A stretch of DNA of 42,661 bases from a virus. Positions 2,748 through 12,499 of the stretch are shown piece by piece. The notes under the pieces are model-generated. The model was not told the DNA's origin. It made no database searches and saw nothing but the letters and a program-made list of their open reading frames with translations. Where the stretch lies: positions 1-42,661 of IMG/VR virus record IMGVR_UViG_3300028024_000014. One strand, 5' to 3'. The position numbers and the translations under genes were made by a program. Numbering within the stretch: position 1 is the first letter of the stretch; the number at the start of each line of letters is the position of its first letter.

Positions 2748-3008
2748 TCAATAGTGGCGGCGGCATTGAATGATGATTATGTGGTCCTTGAGGACGCCGT
2801 AGACGAGGCGGTGCTCGTCGCTGATTCGGCGTGACCAATAGCCTTTCAGGTCGTTCTTGAGACCCTCGGGCTTTCCCAAACCCTTGAACGGATCCCTCAG
2901 ACAGTCGTTAACAAGGTCATTGACCTTGCCAAGCTCGGTCCGATTGTCCGCGCACCAGAAAAGATAATCGCGCCACCCCGGTGGCGCGAACAAAACCGAT
3001 CGAGTCAT
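2748..3008 (-). CDS. yoeB: YoeB-family mRNA interferase toxin
   Basis: The 86-residue length is close to E. coli YoeB (84). The family pattern is clear: a WRDYLFW-like start, LRDPFKGLGKPE in the middle, YWSRRI-DEHRLVY and a terminal RRHY. The residues known to matter in YoeB for ribosome-dependent mRNA cleavage (E46, R65, H83, Y84) are all present, here as E48, R67, H85 and Y86, so the toxin looks intact. It begins directly after the stop of its antitoxin (TAA then ATG, no gap), the usual antitoxin-first order. On a phage such a pair may serve abortive defence against other phages or stable carriage. The assignment is strong. Confidence 0.93.
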   Translation of the reverse strand: MTRSVLFAPPGWRDYLFWCADNRTELGKVNDLVNDCLRDPFKGLGKPEGLKNDLKGYWSRRISDEHRLVYGVLKDHIIIIQCRRHY

Positions 3009-3614
3009 TTAGCCGTGGCGAGTTTTCGGCGTCTTGCGAAGGGCGCCTTCTTTTGGATGTTCGAGCTTTGCGGCATGCCGCGGCGTTCTCTTGATCTGCT
3101 CGGCCGTCTCAAGGAGGTGTGTTCTCGCAATCAATTCGGCCGCCGCAGATTGCTTCTCAATGTCGTGCAACCCGGCCTTGATACCGGCCTTCATAATCTC
3201 CAGCCAGTCGGCTTCGCCCTTCGCGGCGCACAAGGCTTCGTAAGGGGGGAACGCTAACGGCGAGGCTACACCAAGGACCGGGTAGTTGAAGTAAGTCGGC
3301 CCGTAAACGCGCCCGCTGCCCAGTATCGCGGCCTTCAGCAATGCCGCTCGCTCGATACCGCCTTGCTCTTCGCTGGCGTGTTCAGGTCCTTCGATCAACG
3401 ATTCACGACCAAAGGCTTTGTCGACCCAGGCCAAGCCCTCGCTCAATTCTTGAATATTCGCCTGGCTGCCCATCAGATGCGCAGTTTCGACGAGACTGTC
3501 ATACTCCGCAGCGGGCATGACCACATACTGTTTGCCGTCTTTTTCGACCCGCGTGACAGTGCCTTCCCGCCAATCGTCGGGGAAAATCGGGTCGTTCGCG
3601 GTGCCTGGGCTCAT
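3009..3614 (-). CDS. YefM/Phd-like antitoxin with a long C-terminal extension
   Basis: The protein has 201 residues from the ATG at 3614, which has GGAGG eight bases upstream; the frame continues further upstream into the helicase gene but without good initiation signals. Residues around 30-65 (AAEYDSLVETAHLMG, then a helix ending in LAWVDKAFG) match the YefM core that dimerises and binds the operator and YoeB. Ordinary YefM proteins are about 80-90 residues, so some 120 residues here are extra and basic at the very end. The extension may be a fused domain of unknown role. The antitoxin call rests on the motif and on the adjacent intact toxin. Confidence 0.8.
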   Translation of the reverse strand: MSPGTANDPIFPDDWREGTVTRVEKDGKQYVVMPAAEYDSLVETAHLMGSQANIQELSEGLAWVDKAFGRESLIEGPEHASEEQGGIERAALLKAAILGSGRVYGPTYFNYPVLGVASPLAFPPYEALCAAKGEADWLEIMKAGIKAGLHDIEKQSAAAELIARTHLLETAEQIKRTPRHAAKLEHPKEGALRKTPKTRHG

Positions 3615-3687
3615 GCGCTTGTCCTCCATTCGTCGATATATTACCCGATGCGAGCAAAAATGAGGTTTTGTCAAGAGCTGTCGCAGA

Positions 3688-5418
3688 TCAGGCCGCCTTC
3701 CTGAACTGCGAGTAGTCGAAGTCATTGACGATGTTCTCGGCGAAGCCCGGCGTGCCGCGAATGATCGAAATCCGCTCATTCTGGTGGTCGCGCAGCGTCG
3801 TGTTGGCCGCCTCGATAAAGTCGACCACGAACGCCACGTTCGGCCCGGCCTTCTTTTTCCGCAGCCCGCGGCCGATCCGCTGCCGTGTCTGCACTTCGGC
3901 CTTCCCGGCGCCGGCGAGCACGATCAGGCCCACCGCCGGCACGTCCACGCCCACATCCATGATCGACGTGCCGATTACCGCATCGACCCTGCCGGCGCCG
4001 AGTGCATTGAGTGCCGCCTTGCGCTCTTTCTGGTCATTGGCACCTTGGATGAACGCGACCCGCACGCCCGCCTGCGTCAGCATGTCCGACAGGATGCGGC
4101 CGTGCTCGGTGCGCGAGACGAGAATCATCGCCGGCAGCCCGAACTGCGTCGCGCGCTGGACCTCGTAGACGATCGCGCGGTTGCGCTCATCGTTGTTGAC
4201 GACGCCGACCTCGTAGCATTTCGGCCACGGGGTCGAGCGGAAGAGCCGGTGCGTGACCTGGCGGTTCATGCTCGCCTTCGTGACCAGCTCGGTGTATTGG
4301 GGCGCCGGGTTCTGCAGCTGGATGAACTTGAAGAACGGCTTCGCAAGCACGCCCAGGTCGATCAGCTGCTTCTCGGTGACGGTGATCGCGACCGGGCCGC
4401 TGCATGCCTCGAGGCGCAGGTTGTCTTCCGGCGAGTCCTTCATGAACGGCGTCGCGGTCAGCGCGAGCCGGTAGTGCGCGTTCACGCAGTGGCGCATCAC
4501 CTCGTAGAAGCCGTTGCCCGACGCCTCGTGCGCCTCCTCGAGGATCACGAACTCGATGGTCGCCAGAAACGCGATCATTTCCGCACGCTTCCTGTTGTGT
4601 TCCTTCACCTTCGCCTGGATGTCGGCCACCACCTGCGCGTCGGGCGGGCGCTTGGCCTCCAGCGTCTTGCGCAGCGCGGTCGTCGCCTCCGCGACCTGGG
4701 CGGCCGGCACCTTCTGCTTTTTCAGGCGCGACTGCAGCTTCTCGACCTCGCGATCTTCGGCCGCGTCCCGGTTCTTGATGTAGGCGAGCATTTCGCCGTC
4801 GTCGGTCCATGCTTCGATCGCCTGGCTGATCGTCTGCACCATGCCGAGCGTGAACTTGCGCCCAAACTCGCGCTGGCTGTCGCCCACGATGCCCACGCGC
4901 TCGCCGAGGTTCTCGGTGACGGCTTCGCCCATCTGATAGAGCAGGATGCCCCGCGTCGTCAGGAAGAGCGTCGGGCGGTCGATGCGCTTGTAGCAGATGC
5001 GCGCGATGCGCGACTTGCCGCCGCCGGTCGCGACGCGCGCAATGATGGCGCGATGCTTGATGAGCTTGTCGGCCACCTCGGGCTGATAGTTGTAGGCAGG
5101 GTCATAGCCGAAGTCGTCGACCACCGGTCGCTCCGGGCCGAGCGGGGCGGGTGCAGGCTTGCGCACCAGATTGACCTTGTAGCCAGCCTTGAGCAGCAGC
5201 GCATAGACCTTGTAGGTGAAGCCTGCCGGGAAAGTGTCGGTCGAGAAGTCGTAAAAGCTCGACGAGCCGTCCCACGACGATCCCTTGAACGCCTGCGAGT
5301 AGCTCGCCCCGTCCACGAGATAGGAGAGCTTGTCACGCACCAGCAGCTTCACCTCGCGCGACGCGCCGATCAGTTTTGCGTTCACCGCTCCCGCGGCGAG
5401 TGTTAATCCAGTGGTCAT
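3688..5418 (-). CDS. Superfamily 2 DNA helicase (UvsW/ERCC3-like)
   Basis: The protein has 576 residues. Motif I ATGGGKS lies at residues 130-136, motif II EEAH at 294-297, motif III TATP at 321-324, and motif VI QRIGRGLRKK near residue 520. The order and the RecA-like C-terminal half fit SF2 helicases such as T4 UvsW, which remodels branched replication and recombination DNA. The first 110 residues resemble the substrate-binding domain that precedes the ATPase in UvsW-type enzymes. A charged coiled-coil insertion at about 212-282 splits the first ATPase domain and is unusual. It is transcribed away from the ParB operon, with a promoter and palindrome shared in the 61-base divergent gap. Confidence 0.9.
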   Translation of the reverse strand: MTTGLTLAAGAVNAKLIGASREVKLLVRDKLSYLVDGASYSQAFKGSSWDGSSSFYDFSTDTFPAGFTYKVYALLLKAGYKVNLVRKPAPAPLGPERPVVDDFGYDPAYNYQPEVADKLIKHRAIIARVATGGGKSRIARICYKRIDRPTLFLTTRGILLYQMGEAVTENLGERVGIVGDSQREFGRKFTLGMVQTISQAIEAWTDDGEMLAYIKNRDAAEDREVEKLQSRLKKQKVPAAQVAEATTALRKTLEAKRPPDAQVVADIQAKVKEHNRKRAEMIAFLATIEFVILEEAHEASGNGFYEVMRHCVNAHYRLALTATPFMKDSPEDNLRLEACSGPVAITVTEKQLIDLGVLAKPFFKFIQLQNPAPQYTELVTKASMNRQVTHRLFRSTPWPKCYEVGVVNNDERNRAIVYEVQRATQFGLPAMILVSRTEHGRILSDMLTQAGVRVAFIQGANDQKERKAALNALGAGRVDAVIGTSIMDVGVDVPAVGLIVLAGAGKAEVQTRQRIGRGLRKKKAGPNVAFVVDFIEAANTTLRDHQNERISIIRGTPGFAENIVNDFDYSQFRKAA

Positions 5419-5479: not shown

Positions 5480-6142
5480 ATGGCAGGCAACCCTACGAAG
5501 TTCCAGGTCGAGCAGCGCAGCGTGTCTGTCGATATGCTGAGACCGAACAGCTGGAACACCAACCAGATGACCCCGGAGAACGAGGCCAAGCTCGATGTCT
5601 CCGTCGACCGCTTCGGCGTTTACAAGCCGATCGTCGTGCGCCCCCATCCGAGTGGTGAGGGCTACGAAATCCTGGGCGGTCAGCATCGCTGGGAGGCAGC
5701 GTGCCGCAAGGGCATGCTCGAAGTGCCGATCGTCAACGTCGGCCCGGTGACCGACACCGTAGCGAAGGAGATCGGCCTCGTCGATAACGGCCGCTACGGT
5801 GAAGACGACACCCTGGCCCTCTCGCGCCTGCTCAAAGAGCTGGGCGCCGAGGACGTCGGCAGTTTCCTGCCCTATACCGACTCCGAGCTCGAAAACATTC
5901 TCGCAGCGTCAAGTATAGATTTGGACGACCTTGACAAGCTGGATCAGACCGAAATGCCTGACCTGTCAGGCGCGGGCATCGGCGCCACCCATCAGGTGAT
6001 GCGCTTCAAGGTGCCCGTCGAGGACGTCGCATGGGTCACAAGCGCCATCGAGCGCCGGCAGCGCGAGAAGGGTTTCACCACCGAAGACTCCATGACGAAT
6101 GCCGGCATGGCCTTCGTCGATCTCATGAAGGCTTACAAATGA
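5480..6142 (+). CDS. ParB-like (ParB/Srx-fold) protein 1
   Basis: The protein has 220 residues. An N-terminal ParB-type domain is seen at residues 14-110, with the conserved box GGQHRWEAA at 66-74 and the preceding FGVYKPIVVR strand. The C-terminal half is unrelated to chromosome-partition ParB and lacks an evident helix-turn-helix. ParB/Srx-fold domains bind or cleave CTP or ATP or act as nucleases, and in phages they are frequent in DNA-modification and host-takeover clusters. It is the first gene of an operon in which nearly every start overlaps the previous stop. No clear ribosome binding site precedes ATG 5480; the palindromic site lies just upstream. Confidence 0.85.
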   Translation: MAGNPTKFQVEQRSVSVDMLRPNSWNTNQMTPENEAKLDVSVDRFGVYKPIVVRPHPSGEGYEILGGQHRWEAACRKGMLEVPIVNVGPVTDTVAKEIGLVDNGRYGEDDTLALSRLLKELGAEDVGSFLPYTDSELENILAASSIDLDDLDKLDQTEMPDLSGAGIGATHQVMRFKVPVEDVAWVTSAIERRQREKGFTTEDSMTNAGMAFVDLMKAYK

Positions 6143-6612
6143 CACAGATGACACGCTACGTCGGCACCAAAGCCGTCATGGCCCGCGCGATGACGCGCGG
6201 CGAATACAACGCCTACCGCGGGTGGACCATCCCCGCGAACGAAGACCCAAACGAGCCGGGCTACCTGGTCGAGTATCTCGACGGTGGCAAGCCGAACATC
6301 GAAGGTCATCAGGGCTACGTCAGCTGGTCGCCGGCCGATGTGTTCGAGCGCTCATATCAGCTAGGCGCCGCGAAGAGCTTTGGCGATGCGCTGATCGCGT
6401 TGAAAGCGGGGATGCGCGTCGCACGCGTGGGCTGGAATGGGAAAGGCTTGTGGCTTTCGCTGCGGCTCGCGAAGGGTGACGTGATGGACTGCGGCACGGG
6501 TGGTGAGTTTCCCGAGGCAGACTGGATCGGCATGAAAACCGCAGACAACAAATTCGTGCCTTGGCTTGCATCGCAGACCGACGTGCTCGCAAACGACTGG
6601 GTGACCCTGTGA
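6139..6612 (+). CDS. DUF2829 / Thoeris anti-defence Tad2-like protein with an extra N-terminal domain
   Basis: The protein has 157 residues, starting at ATG 6139, which overlaps the previous stop. The last 80 residues follow the DUF2829 pattern closely: SFGDALIALKAGMRVARVGW, a glycine-rich NGKG turn, and IGMKTADNKFVPWLASQTD ending in DW. Tad2 of phage SPO1 belongs to this family; it binds and sequesters the cyclic ADP-ribose-type signal made by the Thoeris TIR enzyme, and some homologues bind CBASS signals. The first 75 residues (GEYNAYRGW, then DEPGYLVEYLDGG-like and YVSWSPADVFERSY) form a second conserved phage module often seen before this domain. The family assignment is strong; the anti-defence role is inferred. 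Confidence 0.85.
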   Translation: MTQMTRYVGTKAVMARAMTRGEYNAYRGWTIPANEDPNEPGYLVEYLDGGKPNIEGHQGYVSWSPADVFERSYQLGAAKSFGDALIALKAGMRVARVGWNGKGLWLSLRLAKGDVMDCGTGGEFPEADWIGMKTADNKFVPWLASQTDVLANDWVTL

Positions 6613-6884
6613 GCAAGCCGACCGGCTTCGCGCGCATCCCGCGCGCCGAATTTCTCTACCCCGAATGCCAGAGCTGCTATTTCCATAACCGGGAACCGGC
6701 GATCTGCGAGAACTGCGACAACGGCTCGGAATTCGACCCGGACGATGATCTCGAGGACAAGCTCTCGGCGCGCAAGGCCGCCGTCGTGAGGTTCTTTCGC
6801 AAGATCCAGACACCCCTGCCGCCCGGGTTCCTGCCCGATGTGCTGGATCCGGCGATCCAAGAAAAGGAGCTCGAAGCAGCATGA
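6609..6884 (+). CDS. Small zinc-ribbon-like protein
   Basis: The protein has 91 residues, starting at GTG 6609 in a GTGA overlap with the stop before it. Two CxxC pairs, C20/C23 and C33/C36, separated by nine residues, are typical of a structural zinc-binding knuckle. A very acidic stretch follows (residues 41-50), then a helix. It could be an adaptor or nucleic-acid-associated factor for the surrounding ParB/ABC operon. The stop overlaps the next start (ATGA). No specific family is recognised, but the coupling on both sides makes it a real gene. Confidence 0.75.
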   Translation: MSKPTGFARIPRAEFLYPECQSCYFHNREPAICENCDNGSEFDPDDDLEDKLSARKAAVVRFFRKIQTPLPPGFLPDVLDPAIQEKELEAA

Positions 6885-7522
6885 GCGTTACCCGCACAGA
6901 AGAAACGCGCCGCGTCGCGGACCTTGTTCCCTACGCGAAGAACGTCAAGAAGCACGACGCCGCGCAGGTCGCGAAGATCGTGGAGTCAATCCAGCAGTTC
7001 GGCTGGACCCAGCCCGTCGTCATCGATGAAAGCAACGTGATCATTGCCGGCCACGGCCGGCGGCTCGCTGCCATTCAGCTCTCCATCCCCGAAGTGCCTG
7101 TCGTCGTGCTGTCGGGCCTGACCGACGAGCAGAAGCGCGCGCTGCGCCTGGCGGATAACCGCACCAACGAGGGCGGCATCGACACGCTCATGTTCCGCGA
7201 CGAGATCGAGGGCATCGAGGGTCTGCTGGTCGGCATTTTCGACACGAAGGAGCTGGAGTTCTCCGTCGCCGATCTGGGCGAGCTGAACGAAGCCGCGTTC
7301 GTGCCGGACGTGGCCGAAGCAGTCGAGGCGCAGGAGCAGGCCGCGCACGCGAAGGCAGACGAGATCGGGTCGCGCCGCGTGCCGCTCACGAAGGTGTTCG
7401 GCTTCAAGGACATCGCGGGCGCCGACGAGATCCACGTCTCGCGCTTCATGGCGCGCGCCCAGGCTGTCACGGGTCTCGCTGGCGCCGATGCGTTGGTGGC
7501 CTTCCTGCAAACCCTCGAATAA
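6881..7522 (+). CDS. ParB-like (ParB/Srx-fold) protein 2
   Basis: The protein has 213 residues. The ParB N-terminal domain spans residues 9-105: LVPYAKNVKKHD, a helix, FGWTQPVVID, then the phosphate-binding box AGHGRRLAA at 56-64 and a RLADNRTNE stretch near 85-92. This last part is typical of the ParB-like domains that are fused to or sit beside phage DNA methyltransferases. The remainder is helical and of unknown role. It is distinct from the first ParB-like protein in this operon, so there are two non-identical copies of the fold. Its stop codon is the first three bases of a perfect 18-bp palindrome, which separates it from the ABC gene. Confidence 0.87.
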   Translation: MSVTRTEETRRVADLVPYAKNVKKHDAAQVAKIVESIQQFGWTQPVVIDESNVIIAGHGRRLAAIQLSIPEVPVVVLSGLTDEQKRALRLADNRTNEGGIDTLMFRDEIEGIEGLLVGIFDTKELEFSVADLGELNEAAFVPDVAEAVEAQEQAAHAKADEIGSRRVPLTKVFGFKDIAGADEIHVSRFMARAQAVTGLAGADALVAFLQTLE

Positions 7523-7537
7523 GTCACATGTGACTTA
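7520..7537. promoter_or_regulatory. Perfect 18-bp palindromic operator-like site (copy 3)
   Basis: TAAGTCAC-AT-GTGACTTA is fully self-complementary and is one of the best matches in the window. A weak TCGAAT -10 (7515-7520) and TTGGTG -35 (7493-7498) sit just before it. It lies six bases ahead of the ABC ATPase gene. Confidence 0.75.
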
Positions 7538-7543
7538 CAAGAT

Positions 7544-8260
7544 ATGACGACATACACAATCGACAAGCGTTTCCATACCCGCGTGGCGCGCAGCCAGCGG
7601 GTCGTGGAAGTCGCTGAAGCGTTCGGGCTCGGCCTGGACGACAAGGAGTTCGTGATCTTCGACGACCTGAAGCTCGACGTGGCGCAGGGCGACGTGATCT
7701 ACATCACCGGCCAGTCCGGCAGCGGCAAATCGCTGCTGCTGCGCGAGCTCTCGGCCCAGATGGCAAGGGAAGGGCAGAAGGTCGCCAACCTGGATGAGGT
7801 GGCGATTGACGCGGACGTGCCGCTCATTGACCAGATCGGCACGTCGACCAACGACGCGATCCGGCTGCTGTCGATCGCCGGCCTGAACGATGCCTACCTC
7901 TTCATTCGCAAGCCCGGCGAGCTCTCCGACGGCCAGCGCTACCGCTTCAAGCTCGCGAAGGCGATCGAGAGCGAGGCCGACGTGTGGGTCGCCGACGAGT
8001 TCATGGCCGTGCTCGACCGCACCGCGGCCAAGGTGATCGCCTACGCGCTGCAGAAGACCGCGCGCAAGGTCAACGCGACCGTGATCGTTGCGACCACCCA
8101 CCTCGATCTCGTGGAAGACCTGCAGCCGTCTCTCTACATCGAGAAGCGCTACCGGGAGAAGCTGCGCATCGAAGCGTTCACAGCGCTTTCTGACGCGTCG
8201 GAGGGGCATCGCGCGATGACACGCGACGAAGCCTATGAACTTTTGAAAAGGATGGCCTGA
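7544..8260 (+). CDS. Soluble ABC-type ATPase of a phage operon
   Basis: The protein has 238 residues. Walker A GQSGSGKS lies at 56-63, the ABC signature LSDGQ at 127-131, Walker B VWVADEF at 147-153, the D-loop AVLD at 155-158 and the H-loop histidine at 186. All parts of a working ABC nucleotide-binding domain are therefore there. No membrane subunit is encoded nearby, so a transporter role is unlikely; it resembles the stand-alone ABC ATPases found beside acyltransferase and ParB genes in phages. It overlaps the thioredoxin gene by one base (TGATG). It may drive or regulate the acyltransferase-like partner encoded two genes downstream. Confidence 0.88.
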   Translation: MTTYTIDKRFHTRVARSQRVVEVAEAFGLGLDDKEFVIFDDLKLDVAQGDVIYITGQSGSGKSLLLRELSAQMAREGQKVANLDEVAIDADVPLIDQIGTSTNDAIRLLSIAGLNDAYLFIRKPGELSDGQRYRFKLAKAIESEADVWVADEFMAVLDRTAAKVIAYALQKTARKVNATVIVATTHLDLVEDLQPSLYIEKRYREKLRIEAFTALSDASEGHRAMTRDEAYELLKRMA

Positions 8261-8589
8261 TGAACACGCTTTACGAAACGACCGTTGCCGCCTCGAAGCA
8301 GGTGCCGCAGGTCGTGATTTTTACGGCACCGTGGTGTGGCCCGTGCAAGATGCTCAAGCCCGCGCTCGCGGCACTGAAGGCCAATTACGGCTTCGCGCTC
8401 ACCGAGCTGAACGTCGAGGACTTCGACGCGGCCGAGCTGCAAACGCTCGGCGTGCGCAATGTGCCTAACGTGCGGGTGCTCCACAACACGGTCGTGAAGG
8501 CCCAGTTCGTCGGCGCGCGCACGAAGGCGCAGGTCGAGGAATGGCTCACGGCACATGGCGTGATCGCACGCGGGTTGAGCTTCGAATGA
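8260..8589 (+). CDS. Thioredoxin
   Basis: The protein has 109 residues, the usual thioredoxin length. The redox centre WCGPC lies at 25-29 after a FTAP strand, and the later NVPN turn supplies the expected cis-proline. Thioredoxins keep protein thiols reduced in the cytoplasm; some phages use one as a polymerase processivity factor (host thioredoxin in T7) or to support nucleotide reduction. Neither a polymerase nor a ribonucleotide reductase is visible here. Its tight position between the ABC ATPase and the acyltransferase-like gene suggests it serves that module. Confidence 0.92.
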   Translation: MNTLYETTVAASKQVPQVVIFTAPWCGPCKMLKPALAALKANYGFALTELNVEDFDAAELQTLGVRNVPNVRVLHNTVVKAQFVGARTKAQVEEWLTAHGVIARGLSFE

Positions 8590-9566
8590 CTGCGCCGGCC
8601 ACCGCCCTGAACCTCGCCGGGCCGATCACTGCGTCCGACGACCCGGATTCCCCGATCCTCGCCTGGCGTGACCCGGCGGCCGGCACGCGCCCGCTCTCGC
8701 TGATGAAGCACATGTATGTCGAGCGCGGCACCCTCGAAGACTGGCAGCTGCTCCACGAGCTGCACTACAAGGCGAGTCAGAACGGGATTGGCCCGCGCTA
8801 CGTGCGCCTCGTGATCGATGATGGCGTCGCGCCCGCGCAGACGATCGGCGTGATGGTGTTCACCGTGCCCAAGCCGCTCGATTCTGGCCGCAATCAGGTG
8901 TTCCCGCACATGCGACCGAACCAGAACGGGCGCGACAACCAGCTCATCAACGTGCAGCGCATGGCGTGGATCAACAAGAACCTGATCCTCTCGTCGCGCA
9001 CGGTGCTCGACACCATGTATCGCGGCGGCGGCATTGCCTACCGGTTCAAGAACATCGGCTACCGCCTGATGGGTTTTCGCTACGTCGAGAGCCGCAGTTC
9101 GATGAGCCGCTACAACCCGTTCTCGATCAAGGCCGGCATGCGCTTCGTGAAGCCGAAATCAGCGCCCGCCTTCGAAACGGGCCTGGCCTTCTTCGCGCGC
9201 CACTTCAAGAGCCCGGCCTACGACTACGTGGCGATCAAGCAGGAGATCGAGGCGATGCCCGATTACCTGCGCGAGCACACGTTGAAGGAGCTGCGTGCCT
9301 TTTACTACCGCAACAGCTCGATGGAAAAGTCGGGCGACAACCGGCTGAACGGCACCTCGCGCGTCGAGCAGATGGAGCTTGGCTACCTCCTGAAGCAGAC
9401 CCAGCAGCTCGTGTTCGGCGCAACGGTGTATGCCGCTTGGACCAATCCTGACTGGGACTCGGACACGCGTGCCATGCGGCCGCTGCCCGCGCGCATCCCG
9501 CTTTCCGCTTTCGAAAACCAGGGCGTCAACGAGCCGTTGCGCCTCGACCTTCTGGAGACTCGATGA
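8586..9566 (+). CDS. GNAT/Mom-like acyltransferase-type protein
   Basis: The protein has 326 residues from ATG 8586, which overlaps the thioredoxin stop by four bases. The central part reads like a GNAT fold: a LHYKAS helix after the first strand, IGVMVF as strands 2-3, NVQRMAWINKNLILSSRTV, then RGGGIAYRFKNIGYRLMGF at about 145-163, where RGGGIA resembles the acyl-CoA loop (R/Q-x-x-G-x-G/A). The same layout is seen in Mu Mom, an acyltransferase-fold enzyme that modifies adenine in phage DNA. The C-terminal 120 residues are extra. The fold call is moderate; the DNA-modifying role is inferred from the ParB, ABC and thioredoxin neighbours. Confidence 0.6.
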   Translation: MTAPATALNLAGPITASDDPDSPILAWRDPAAGTRPLSLMKHMYVERGTLEDWQLLHELHYKASQNGIGPRYVRLVIDDGVAPAQTIGVMVFTVPKPLDSGRNQVFPHMRPNQNGRDNQLINVQRMAWINKNLILSSRTVLDTMYRGGGIAYRFKNIGYRLMGFRYVESRSSMSRYNPFSIKAGMRFVKPKSAPAFETGLAFFARHFKSPAYDYVAIKQEIEAMPDYLREHTLKELRAFYYRNSSMEKSGDNRLNGTSRVEQMELGYLLKQTQQLVFGATVYAAWTNPDWDSDTRAMRPLPARIPLSAFENQGVNEPLRLDLLETR

Positions 9567-9784
9567 AAACGACCGTCAGCACGCTGTGCATCGTCGGCAC
9601 CAAGGGCGCGCTGTCGCCCTGGACGATGGAGCCGATCGAAGACGCGAACGCGGTGCGCGGCATGTCCTACGACTTCGTGATGTGGGTGCGCACGCCCACG
9701 CCCGAGGAATACCGCACGGTGAACGCGACGCTGAAAACGTCGGAGGTGGGCGATCATTTCTGGCTGTGCCGGCGGCCGCGATGA
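9563..9784 (+). CDS. Small hypothetical protein
   Basis: This 73-residue protein is coupled on both sides by ATGA overlaps, with the acyltransferase-like gene before it and the next gene after it. It appears to be a compact alpha/beta protein with a DFVMWVRT strand in the middle. It has no membrane segment and no known motif. Its coupling suggests a role tied to its neighbours, but no function can be assigned. Confidence 0.7.
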   Translation: MKTTVSTLCIVGTKGALSPWTMEPIEDANAVRGMSYDFVMWVRTPTPEEYRTVNATLKTSEVGDHFWLCRRPR

Positions 9785-10224
9785 ACCTCACGACCAAGCA
9801 GATCGAGATCATGAAGGTGGTCGCCGCGGGCGCCATCGCGGGCGCCGTGGTCGACCTCGATCAGCTGCTCGAGCGCCTGCCTTACACGACCACGAAGGAA
9901 AGCCTGCAGTTCTCGCTGCGCGCAATCGAGCGGCACGGGCTCATTGACCGGTCGATGTCCGAGCACCGCCGCGGCCGCGCGCGGCGCCTGGTGAAGCCGA
10001 CGGATCTCGGCATGGCCGTCATCAATGGCACAGGCCGGCCGCCGCCGGGTCCGGGCGCCGCGGTGGGTTCGCGATCGGAAAAGATCCTTCCCGAGCCGGT
10101 GTCTCACGGGAAAGCAGAGGATCTGCCGGTAAGCGAAGACTTACCCCAGCCGGCGATCCTTTCCCTCCCGGAGCTGACTTTCTCCGAGCCGGAGCTGGTC
10201 CTCGAAGAGCAGTTCATTGGTTAA
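9781..10224 (+). CDS. Putative winged-helix DNA-binding protein
   Basis: The protein has 147 residues from ATG 9781, which overlaps the previous stop. Residues 1-80 form a helical domain ending in a basic patch: LTTKQIEIMKVV, DLDQLLERLPYTT, a recognition-like helix LQFSLRAIERHGLI, then a Ser/Arg-rich hairpin with RRGRARR. That is the expected layout of a winged helix. The last 60 residues are proline- and glutamate-rich and probably disordered. It is the last gene of the operon and lies directly before the inverted-repeat element at 10247, so it could bind there or act as a regulator of the palindromic sites. This is inference only. Confidence 0.6.
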   Translation: MNLTTKQIEIMKVVAAGAIAGAVVDLDQLLERLPYTTTKESLQFSLRAIERHGLIDRSMSEHRRGRARRLVKPTDLGMAVINGTGRPPPGPGAAVGSRSEKILPEPVSHGKAEDLPVSEDLPQPAILSLPELTFSEPELVLEEQFIG

Positions 10225-10246: not shown

Positions 10247-10361
10247 CTTACCACTTGTCACTTTTCAGGGGTTCCCTCTATATATAACCCTTCTTTTTAA
10301 AACCTACAAAAACTACATTCAAAAAGCTAAGGGAACCCCCGAAAAGTGACAAGTAAGTAAG
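10247..10361. repeat. Long inverted repeat with AT-rich loop (element A)
   Basis: Left arm 10247-10277 and right arm 10330-10361 pair over about 31 bases with few mismatches, including ACTTGTCACTTTTC and GGGGTTCCCT. The 52-base loop is AT-rich. The inner edge of the left arm plus the first part of the loop (10272-10296) recurs with one mismatch at 41913-41937. Such structures are candidates for replication origins, primase sites or recombination sites. Confidence 0.8.
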
Positions 10362-10405: not shown

Positions 10406-10564
10406 ATGAAGAGAAGCGCGCGGGTGGATAAGTCCGTTCACAAAAATAAGTCACAGGTTATTTACAAGTCCGCTGCGGCCGGCTATAGTGAGCTCCTCAA
10501 GCATCACCTCCAAGGGGCAGACCACAAAGGCTGCCCCATTTTTTTTACGGGAATCCAATCGTGA
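10406..10564 (+). CDS. Possible 52-residue leader ORF coupled to the small terminase gene
   Basis: ATG 10406 follows GGAAGGAAG by about nine bases, and the frame ends in TGA at 10562-10564, overlapping the GTG start of the next gene (GTGA). These two signals support translation and would explain how the terminase gene, which has only a weak ribosome binding site, is initiated. Against it, the ORF spans an operator-like palindrome, a promoter and an intrinsic terminator, and the peptide has no recognisable features. It could be a leader peptide whose translation affects terminator folding, or it could be chance. Confidence 0.35.
   Translation: MKRSARVDKSVHKNKSQVIYKSAAAGYSELLKHHLQGADHKGCPIFFTGIQS
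10447..10489 (+). promoter_or_regulatory. Operator-like palindrome (copy 4) with overlapping promoter
   Basis: The palindrome TAAGTCAC-AG-GTTATTTA covers 10447-10464. The -35 TTTACA (10461-10466) overlaps its right arm, followed by a 17-bp spacer and -10 TATAGT (10484-10489). This promoter points at the packaging genes but has an intrinsic terminator 25 bases downstream. Confidence 0.7.
10514..10546 (+). terminator. Intrinsic terminator upstream of the terminase genes
   Basis: GGGGCAG (10514-10520) pairs with CTGCCCC (10531-10537), and after one A come eight Ts. It lies between the promoter at 10461 and the terminase start at 10561, so it would attenuate or gate late transcription rather than end a gene. 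Confidence 0.9.
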
Positions 10565-11226
10565 CCGAAACGACGACGCTCCCGAAAAAGACCGGGGGCC
10601 GCACCGCAGGCAGCAAGTCGCTGACCGAGAAGCAGAAGGCGGAAGCCTGTGCGCTCTATCAGGCAGGCGAACTGACGCTCGACCAGCTCGCCAAGCGCTA
10701 CGGGCGCACGCCGCGCGCGATGAGTGCGCTGTTTGCGAAGGAGGGCGTCAAGAAGGGCGAGAAGCGCGCAGAAGTGCACGCCGCGATCACCCAGCAGGTC
10801 AACCAGCAGATCGCGGGTGACGCGAACCTCATCGCGGCCAAGATTCGCGAGACGAAAGACTCGCACTACGCCGCGGCGAAGGTCATCGCGGGCCTGATCC
10901 AGCGCCAGCTCGTTGACGCCCAGAAGAAAAACCAGCCGTTTGCGACTGTCCAGAACGAAATCAAGACGCTCAAGCTCGCGGCCGAGGCGCTCGCGACGCT
11001 GCGCGAGGAGCGGTTCGTGATTCTGGGCATTGCCGACGGCGAGAAGGATGACGCCGAAGACCTGCCGGAGCTCGGCATTCAGGAAATGACCGCCGACCAG
11101 ATCCTCGAGATGCAGCAGCGTCAGGACGATAGTGGTCTCGACATGGGCGACGCCGAGGCGATGCCGGTCGCGCCAGAGGGCGATGACGATGTGATCGACG
11201 TCGAGGACGGCAATGCAGCTGCGTGA
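10561..11226 (+). CDS. Terminase small subunit
   Basis: The protein has 221 residues from GTG 10561. The N-terminal part has a helix-turn-helix type region: LTEKQKAEACALYQAGELTL, then DQLAKRYGRTPRAMSALF. This is typical of small terminases that bind the packaging site on concatemeric phage DNA. A long helical middle region (probably oligomerisation) and a very acidic tail (from about residue 165) follow. The last 14 bases overlap the large-subunit gene. The ribosome binding site is weak, so initiation may depend on coupling from upstream. Order and fold make the call good. Confidence 0.85.
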   Translation: MTETTTLPKKTGGRTAGSKSLTEKQKAEACALYQAGELTLDQLAKRYGRTPRAMSALFAKEGVKKGEKRAEVHAAITQQVNQQIAGDANLIAAKIRETKDSHYAAAKVIAGLIQRQLVDAQKKNQPFATVQNEIKTLKLAAEALATLREERFVILGIADGEKDDAEDLPELGIQEMTADQILEMQQRQDDSGLDMGDAEAMPVAPEGDDDVIDVEDGNAAA

Positions 11227-12499
11227 ACCGGGGCTGCCGACCGTTACGGCGATCGCGAGCGAGCTGCAAACCATTTTCCTTCATCCGAAGCAGATGGAGG
11301 TGTTCCGCTCGCCGCACCGCTTCCGCGTCGTCACGGCCGGCCGGCGCTGGGGCAAGACGCAGCTGGCGAAGGTCTCGCTGATCAAATACGCGAAGGTCAA
11401 GAACCGGCTCGTGTGGTATGTCGCGCCGTCTTACCGGATGGCGAAGCAGATCATGTGGCCGGATCTGGTCGCCTCGATTCCGAAGCGCTGGATCAAAAAG
11501 ATCAACGAGACGACGCTCACCATTATCCTGGTGAACAACACGCGCATCGAGCTGAAGGGCGCCGACAACCCCGACTCGCTGCGCGGCGTGGGTGTGCACT
11601 TTCTCGTCATGGACGAAGTGCAGGACATCAACCCCGAAGCCTGGAAAAAAGTGCTGCGCCCGACGCTCGCGTCGACCGGCGGCCACGCGCTTTTCATCGG
11701 CACACCCAAGTCCTACAACTTCCTCTACGACCTGCACGTTCTCGGCCAAGACCCGAAGAACCAGATTCTCGGGCGGTGGAAGAGCTGGCAGTTCCCGACG
11801 ATCACGTCGCCGTTCATCCCGGCCTCTGAAATCGAAGCCGCGCGCGCCGACATGGACGACAAGTCGTTCAAGCAGGAGTTCGAAGCCTCGTTCGAGACGA
11901 TGAGCGGCCGCGTGTATTACCCGTTCGACCGCAAGGTCCATGTGGGGAGCTATCCGTTCAACCCGTCGCTGCCGATCTGGGTGGGGCAGGACTTCAACAT
12001 CGATCCGATGAGTTCCTGCATTCTCCAGCCGCAGGAAAACGGCGAGGTGTGGGTGGTCAACGAGCTGAGCCTGAAGTCCTCGAACACCGAGGAGGTCTGC
12101 GACGAGCTCGAGCGCCTCTACTGGAAACTGGTCAAGCGCGTGACGATCTTCCCCGATCCGGCCGGCGGCTACCGGCAGCACGCGCGCGGCGAATCCGACG
12201 TCGAGATTTTCCGCCAGAAGGGCTTCAAGAACGTGGTCTACCACAAGAAGCACCCGCCGGTGGCAGACCGCGTGAACGCCGTAAATCGCATGCTCAAAAG
12301 CGCCGACGGCAAGATCCGACTCAGGGTCGACAAGTCGTGCAAGGAAGTGATCCGCGCGCTCGAGCAAACGATCTACGAGGCGGGCGGCCGCGAAGTGGAC
12401 AAGAGCATGGGTGTCGATCACATGGGCGATGCGCTGGGCTATCCGGTCCAATACATGTTCCCGGTGCGCGAAGTGACCATTGCAGGCGTCTCCATTTAA
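11213..12499 (+). CDS. Terminase large subunit
   Basis: The protein has 428 residues. Its ATPase domain has the Walker A-type GRRWGKT at 43-49 and Walker B LVMDE at 131-135, followed by a coupling motif near residue 162 (FIGTPKS). The C-terminal RNase H-like nuclease has D260 in VGQDFNIDP and the D402/D406 pair in VDHMGDALGY. The protein cuts concatemeric DNA and pumps it into the procapsid through the portal. The start ATG 11213 lies inside the end of the small-subunit gene. All catalytic elements look intact. A promoter for the portal genes is embedded in its last codons. Confidence 0.95.
   Translation: MQLREPGLPTVTAIASELQTIFLHPKQMEVFRSPHRFRVVTAGRRWGKTQLAKVSLIKYAKVKNRLVWYVAPSYRMAKQIMWPDLVASIPKRWIKKINETTLTIILVNNTRIELKGADNPDSLRGVGVHFLVMDEVQDINPEAWKKVLRPTLASTGGHALFIGTPKSYNFLYDLHVLGQDPKNQILGRWKSWQFPTITSPFIPASEIEAARADMDDKSFKQEFEASFETMSGRVYYPFDRKVHVGSYPFNPSLPIWVGQDFNIDPMSSCILQPQENGEVWVVNELSLKSSNTEEVCDELERLYWKLVKRVTIFPDPAGGYRQHARGESDVEIFRQKGFKNVVYHKKHPPVADRVNAVNRMLKSADGKIRLRVDKSCKEVIRALEQTIYEAGGREVDKSMGVDHMGDALGYPVQYMFPVREVTIAGVSI

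Follow-up and report, generated by a model that had tools for sequence, protein, structure and literature searches.

A split-gene ABC ATPase and GNAT acyltransferase module with two ParB-fold proteins, upstream of the terminase genes of a virus: a putative DNA acyl-modification system

Background

As related in section 3.4.7 of a review on jumbo phages (PMC7824862), Iyer et al. (gkt573) predicted in 2013 that a GNAT acyltransferase coupled to an ABC ATPase would place an uncharacterised acyl modification on a DNA base. It has also been reported that phage base-modification genes are often accompanied by ParB domains (PMC12783734). A further point of comparison is the Mom protein of phage Mu, whose sequence record annotates the Mom modification as taking place just before packaging. 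In this paper, we have analysed IMG/VR virus record IMGVR_UViG_3300028024_000014 (42,661 bases, hereafter the window), in which a run of overlapping genes starting at position 5480 encodes two ParB-fold proteins (ParB1 and ParB2), a soluble ABC ATPase, a thioredoxin and a GNAT-fold protein. A 106-kb close relative, IMGVR_UViG_3300025735_000007, shares 98-100% identity with the window. An earlier reading of the same genes, made from the sequence only, had proposed that they form a biochemical unit, which may make an acyl- or amide-type modification of DNA that blocks restriction, an idea that had already been published as the above prediction and was re-derived from the sequence.

Results and Discussion

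The ABC ATPase and the GNAT protein form a coupled pair

The module is the split-gene form of the ABC-ATPase and GNAT system known as MK0520/COG2401 (phrog_293 + phrog_886). Its ABC ATPase is encoded at 7544..8260 on the + strand (PF00005, E 6e-13; phrog_293, E 7e-47), and its GNAT-fold protein at 8586..9566 on the same strand (phrog_886, E 1.7e-100; hereafter the 8586 product). The PHROG label of the latter is 'ABC transporter ATP-binding subunit' despite the absence of an ATPase motif, and phage records name its orthologues 'MK0520 protein, ABC-type ATPase fused to a predicted acetyltransferase domain'. Relatives are abundant, 322 of them having been met in a single viral scan, and the usual order in 113 non-redundant phage and prophage loci is a helicase on the - strand followed by ParB1, ParB2, ABC, GNAT, phrog_900, and the small and large terminase subunits (TerS and TerL). 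The ABC gene is adjacent to the GNAT gene in 109 of the 114 loci that contain the latter, the remaining five being on contigs that start 0-0.9 kb upstream; in the window, the thioredoxin alone separates the two. As the pair is fused or adjacent wherever this could be tested, the coupling of the two proteins is supported.

The ABC protein is 57-64% identical to distant phage counterparts, and the alignment shows that all its motifs are intact, namely Walker A (GQSGSGKS), the signature (LSDGQ), Walker B (VWVADEF) and the H-loop (ATTH). No strongly hydrophobic segment was found in any protein of the module, nor a permease in the annotated operons of its relatives. The motif alignment and the hydrophobicity check thus bear out the earlier description of a soluble ABC ATPase with every motif in place and no membrane partner.

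The GNAT protein is remotely related to Mom

The AlphaFold2 model of the 8586 product, built with 100 homologues, adopts a GNAT fold with a predicted local distance difference test score (pLDDT) of 92.2, and matches many GNATs in the PDB with Z 10-11 (VIA-align). Mu Mom (8bv8, S124A) belongs to the tied top group, with Z 10.6, a root-mean-square deviation of 3.6 and 146 aligned residues, the longest alignment among the best six. The comparison with Mom and GNAT structures that had been proposed as a check has therefore returned a GNAT fold. The RGGGIA loop, from which an acyltransferase-like protein had been suspected, is at residues 146-151 of this confident model. A CoA-loop signature, RVxxPxYRGxG, is conserved, and R146-G147-x-G149, kept in 100 sequences, fits the GNAT pattern (R/Q)xxGx(G/A). 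Eight residues (H60, Y61, R102, R138, R146, E168, M173 and G184) are invariant over the phage, planctomycete and archaeal members in these 100 sequences. Fused relatives pass the PF00583 cut-off of 20.7 bits (Jace, 37.6; Pmp13, 29.1; L128, 25.1).

Profile comparison as well as the model points to a remote relationship between this protein and Mom. A wider-family profile, made of the GNAT domains of fused ABC-GNAT proteins, archaeal and planctomycete members and the window protein, aligned with the Mom profile over 120 columns in register (hhalign, probability 94, pairwise E 1.6e-7), where E-values against the Mom profile, here and below, come from pairwise comparisons and are not equivalent to those of a database search. 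In particular, hhalign placed H60-Y61, found in 100/100 sequences of the 8586 subfamily, in register with H48-Y49 of Mom, found in 11/11; this HY motif, located in the helix region preceding the central sheet, is present in every wider-family and Mom sequence compared. For the Mom invariants D139, Y149 and N153, the alignment is uncertain past beta-4. The best relative against the Mom family model PF25680, Pmp13, reaches 15.2 bits, below the cut-off of 27.1. Hence the label 'Mom-like' in the sequence-only reading holds as remote kinship, in fold and in-register profiles; placement within the Mom family itself is not supported. An independent pairing of ParB and Mom was seen in Microbacterium phage Appa (L225:969-2121), in which a ParB-like gene overlaps a Mom-family gene.

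Both ParB proteins belong to the module

ParB1 (5480..6142, + strand) is a member of phrog_723 (E 2e-53) and carries a ParB_N domain (PF02195, E 6e-13). ParB2 (6881..7522, + strand; phrog_930, E 2e-68) scores below the Pfam cut-off for the ParB domain; its AlphaFold2 model (pLDDT 91) matches ParB N-domains with Z 13, CTP-analogue-bound structures included, and its profile matches ParB/Noc/Spo0J in the PDB profile comparison with E 3e-8. Across 61 sequences, the GHGRR and LADNR motifs of ParB2, which belong to the NTP pocket of the ParB/Srx superfamily, are invariant or nearly so, GHGR, R89 and N93 being strictly invariant. Both proteins thus have the ParB fold that had been assigned to them, the first by its domain and the second by its model. 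Furthermore, ParB2 aligns with ParB domains that are fused to DNA methyltransferases (phrog_498, E 5e-35; PADLOC MTase_II, E 2.4e-21), and a ParB gene is nearly always found beside the ABC-GNAT pair.

The public annotations would lead to another function, in which the ABC protein is part of a transporter and the ParB proteins serve the segregation of a phage-plasmid; some relatives are indeed phage-plasmids (SSU5, B1VFA; PMC12509600), and the annotation given is 'ABC transporter'. We consider this highly improbable, for exactly two ParB_N genes are present in 15/15 genomes, both inside the module, whereas ParA is encoded in only 6/15, and outside the module (~70 kb away in SSU5). Moreover, the operon encodes no membrane protein, and the ABC protein is fused to the GNAT in distant relatives. 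Both halves were accordingly rejected: a ParABS partition system because ParA is absent in 9/15 genomes and never in the module, and an ABC transporter because the operon has no permease or hydrophobic partner.

The module is linked to the terminase across phyla

Phages that infect Proteobacteria, Firmicutes, Spirochaetes, Actinobacteria, Planctomycetota and archaea have the gene set just upstream of the terminase. In distant phages of Lactococcus, Streptococcus, Leptospira, Pasteurella and Rhodococcus, ParB and then ABC(-GNAT) lie upstream of the terminase, and Gordonia phage AnClar has an ABC-GNAT gene one gene upstream of it. The order in planctomycete proviruses is S24 repressor, HTH, ABC, GNAT, ParB, a small gene and TerL, and archaeal proviruses encode a fused ABC-GNAT near TerL. 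The T4-like Vibrio phage vB_VmeM-32 carries a fused ABC-GNAT gene with neither terminase nor ParB nearby. This linkage across phyla is an addition of the present survey, and may already stand in Iyer et al. 2013. The pairwise ratios of nonsynonymous to synonymous substitution rates (dN/dS) are 0.10-0.14 for both GNAT and TerL, 0.13-0.27 for ABC and 0.20-0.49 for the thioredoxin, so that the constraint on GNAT and ABC is close to that on TerL. In a decayed prophage of Halomonas sulfidaeris (L107), the helicase, GNAT, TerS and TerL genes are broken over several frames, and the ParB and ABC genes are still open.

These observations bear on a second explanation, by which the module would be a core packaging-stage machine: the ParB and ABC proteins would act on concatemeric DNA near the start of packaging, and the GNAT would acylate a packaging protein (TerS, TerL or the portal) or license the DNA for packaging, instead of protecting it generally from restriction. 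Such a role would account for the constant place directly upstream of TerS/TerL, seen in Proteobacteria, Firmicutes (P335, Javan523), Spirochaetes (LE4), Actinobacteria (AnClar, Jace), Planctomycetota and archaea, as well as for a constraint about equal to that of TerL. Yet packaging proceeds without this module in most tailed phages, vB_VmeM-32 keeps the fused gene without ParB or terminase neighbours, and DNA modification is favoured by the links to Mom and to ParB domains associated with methyltransferases. We therefore hold this explanation to be possible, though rather improbable.

The thioredoxin and other genes are accessory cargo

The thioredoxin gene (8260..8589, + strand) is real, with a WCGPC active site and a match to PF00085 (E 5.5e-16; 58.9 bits vs a cut-off of 23.5). 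A first impression that it was confined to near relatives was overturned by a wider search, in which a thioredoxin occupied the gap between ABC and GNAT in 57/109 loci, with CxxC kept in 58/58 relatives. Its presence clusters on the GNAT tree (11 changes vs 34 in shuffles), and it is probably a clade-level acquisition with losses. Since the slot is otherwise empty or filled by Tad2-like, polynucleotide-kinase-like or unknown genes, the thioredoxin is a recurrent accessory and not part of the core, though it might perhaps serve a redox-sensitive step. Of the earlier interpretation, the folds, the soluble ABC protein, the kinship with Mom and the ABC-GNAT coupling have stood, while an essential role of the thioredoxin in the unit has not. 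In Enterococcus phage Vaquero (L223:374-1198), a thioredoxin-domain gene directly follows a Mom-like gene, an echo of the GNAT-thioredoxin pair of the window.

Two further genes between ParB1 and ParB2, missing from the earlier gene list, encode a protein with a Tad2-like (Thoeris anti-defence 2-like) domain (6139..6612, + strand; PF11195, E 4e-21), for which ATG 6139 is a possible start, and a small Cys-rich, zinc-ribbon-like protein with two CxxC pairs and no family match (6609..6884, + strand). We take both to be accessory; Tad2-like genes recur at varying positions within the same island of relatives and are variably present.

It is conceivable from such cargo that the whole island serves counter-defence and that the GNAT acylates a protein or an RNA of the host, in the service of takeover or counter-defence; host RNA polymerase is known to be modified by phage GNATs, Rac being one (PMC7824862). 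The recurrence of Tad2-like domains in the island would suit this explanation, as would the varied content of the ABC-GNAT gap, polynucleotide-kinase-like genes included. But a takeover enzyme would be odd in the constant company of an ABC partner and the near-constant company of ParB and terminase, and the core is invariant while the cargo varies; an action on host targets is in our view unlikely.

A putative mechanism, and the evidence against it

The best-supported reading, which could in our judgement still go either way, is that the module carries out acyl modification of DNA at the time of packaging. In this scheme, the ABC ATPase and the ParB proteins, which are DNA clamps with a CTPase fold, would load onto or scan the viral DNA, with the ABC protein holding the GNAT enzyme. 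With a CoA thioester as its donor, the latter would attach an acyl-type group to an exocyclic base amine at selected sites, at a late stage of infection and just ahead of packaging, as in Mu Mom; the acylated bases may then shield the injected DNA from host nucleases. We infer that DNA is the substrate because of the kinship with Mom, the relationship of ParB2 to methyltransferase-linked ParB domains, the recurrence of ParB beside base-modification genes and the adjacency of the module to the terminase, which also fits the timing annotated for Mom.

Several results weigh against this reading. The 8586 product of the window matches neither a GNAT Pfam model nor PF25680, and the profile of its own subfamily aligns with the 11-member Mom alignment in register, but weakly (pairwise E 5e-4, probability 31). 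Moreover, Mom is without the RxxGxG CoA loop that the window GNAT keeps; therefore, the donor or the chemistry may differ between the two. In the literature searched, we found no measured modified bases or restriction resistance for any relative, and no modification data for nickie-like, B1VFA, SSU5-like or LE3/LE4 phages. The restriction-resistant Stenotrophomonas phage DLP3 (PMC7326821) is not among the tblastn matches, hence provides no evidence, and the phages of the nanopore study PMC11780129 are not among these matches either. Caution is called for most of all by the retention of the module, which is about as strict as that of the terminase and suggests a role in packaging itself: near-universal retention beside the terminase in several phyla exceeds what would be expected of an optional anti-restriction gene.

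A broader form of the acyl-modification reading, which we put forward tentatively and would sooner doubt than accept, is that many tailed viruses of bacteria and archaea inherit an ancestral packaging-coupled DNA acylation machine, whose product would be a new base modification, sparse, site-specific and overlooked. ParB clamps and an ABC motor would present the DNA to a Mom-like, CoA-dependent acyltransferase when the terminase loads. Should the module indeed acylate DNA, a DNA modification that is uncharacterised and tied to packaging would be present in hundreds of phage and provirus genomes, among them phage-plasmids of clinical bacteria and such classic models as lactococcal P335. This would also explain a widely misannotated 'ABC transporter' pair next to the terminase, in a way directly testable in laboratory phages, and Mom, unusual in its chemistry, would gain a wider family whose CoA site is intact.

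Layout of the operon and flanking elements

The core reading frames are real, because they recur in synteny in about 110 loci. Overlaps of 4 bases (ATGA or GTGA) occur at 6139-6142 (ParB1/Tad2-like, ATGA), 6609-6612, 6881-6884, 8586-8589, 9563-9566 and 9781-9784, and the ABC/thioredoxin boundary has a 1-base overlap at 8260 (TGATG). The sole intergenic gap in the run that starts with ParB1 is 7523-7543, in agreement with the earlier remark that the genes overlap throughout except at the palindrome at 7520. Beyond the GNAT gene, a 73-residue protein (9563..9784, + strand) is specific to a subclade, being syntenic in close relatives only. The conserved unit extends through a small phrog_900 protein (9781..10224, + strand; E 8e-22; 115 loci), the small terminase-like DNA-binding protein TerS (10561..11226, + strand; phrog_867; 110 loci) and the constant downstream neighbour TerL (11213..12499, + strand; 108 loci), which is 57-62% identical to distant annotated terminases. 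On the other side, a divergent SF2 helicase (UvsW/RNA-helicase-like; 3688..5418, - strand) is a syntenic flank in 95/109 loci with ABC and GNAT (tblastn/HMM).

The 18-bp perfect palindrome TAAGTCACATGTGACTTA at 7520..7537 is not specific to the module: it is a copy of a dispersed 16-bp palindrome, AAGTNACNNGTNACTT, with 15 copies in the window (<=2 mismatches) vs 0.67 expected, at 538, 5447, 7521, 10344, 10448, 12509, 15116, 16086, 19322, 19911, 26151, 26426, 32725, 38114 and 38551. These are intergenic in 14/15 cases, though the surveyed region is 95% coding; the 106-kb relative has 31 copies and Rhizobium phage RHph_X66 has 32, against only 2-5 in SSU5, hairong and BUCTxx99. The repeat looks like an operator, a stoperator or another putative protein-binding site. 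The gap before TerS contains a long imperfect inverted repeat, ACTTGTCACTTTTCAGGGGTTCCC ... GGGAACCCCCGAAAAGTGACAAGT (10250-10360; DNA fold z -5.2), possibly a packaging, origin or regulatory site. A candidate YoeB-like toxin (2748-3008) with an antitoxin-like gene upstream of it was noticed by eye (window 2748-3779, - strand).

Comparison with known systems

The modules of SSU5 (Salmonella) and nickie/hairong (Pseudomonas) have the same order, helicase-ParB-ParB-ABC-GNAT-terminase, and orthologous proteins (ABC 60-64%, GNAT 37-45% identity); unlike the window, their core genes are without an intervening thioredoxin or Tad2-like gene. The ParB-DNA methyltransferase fusions (phrog_498, PADLOC MTase_II) have an N-terminal ParB domain resembling ParB2, but carry a methyltransferase domain, which ParB2 of the window does not. 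With the Mom family (phage Mu Mom, PF25680, phrog_1384), the window GNAT shares its fold, the in-register profile similarity and the invariant HY motif; it differs in belonging to a separate PHROG, in scoring below the Mom profile threshold, and in having a constant ABC partner and an extra C-terminal helical region. The closest likeness is to the system predicted by Iyer et al. in 2013 (MK0520/COG2401), which has the same ABC and GNAT families in the same pairing, with ParB adjoining. The window differs from it in that ABC and GNAT are on separate genes, ParB genes are two in number, and a thioredoxin stands between ABC and GNAT; it thus adds a split-gene, thioredoxin-bearing member to the ABC-GNAT family.

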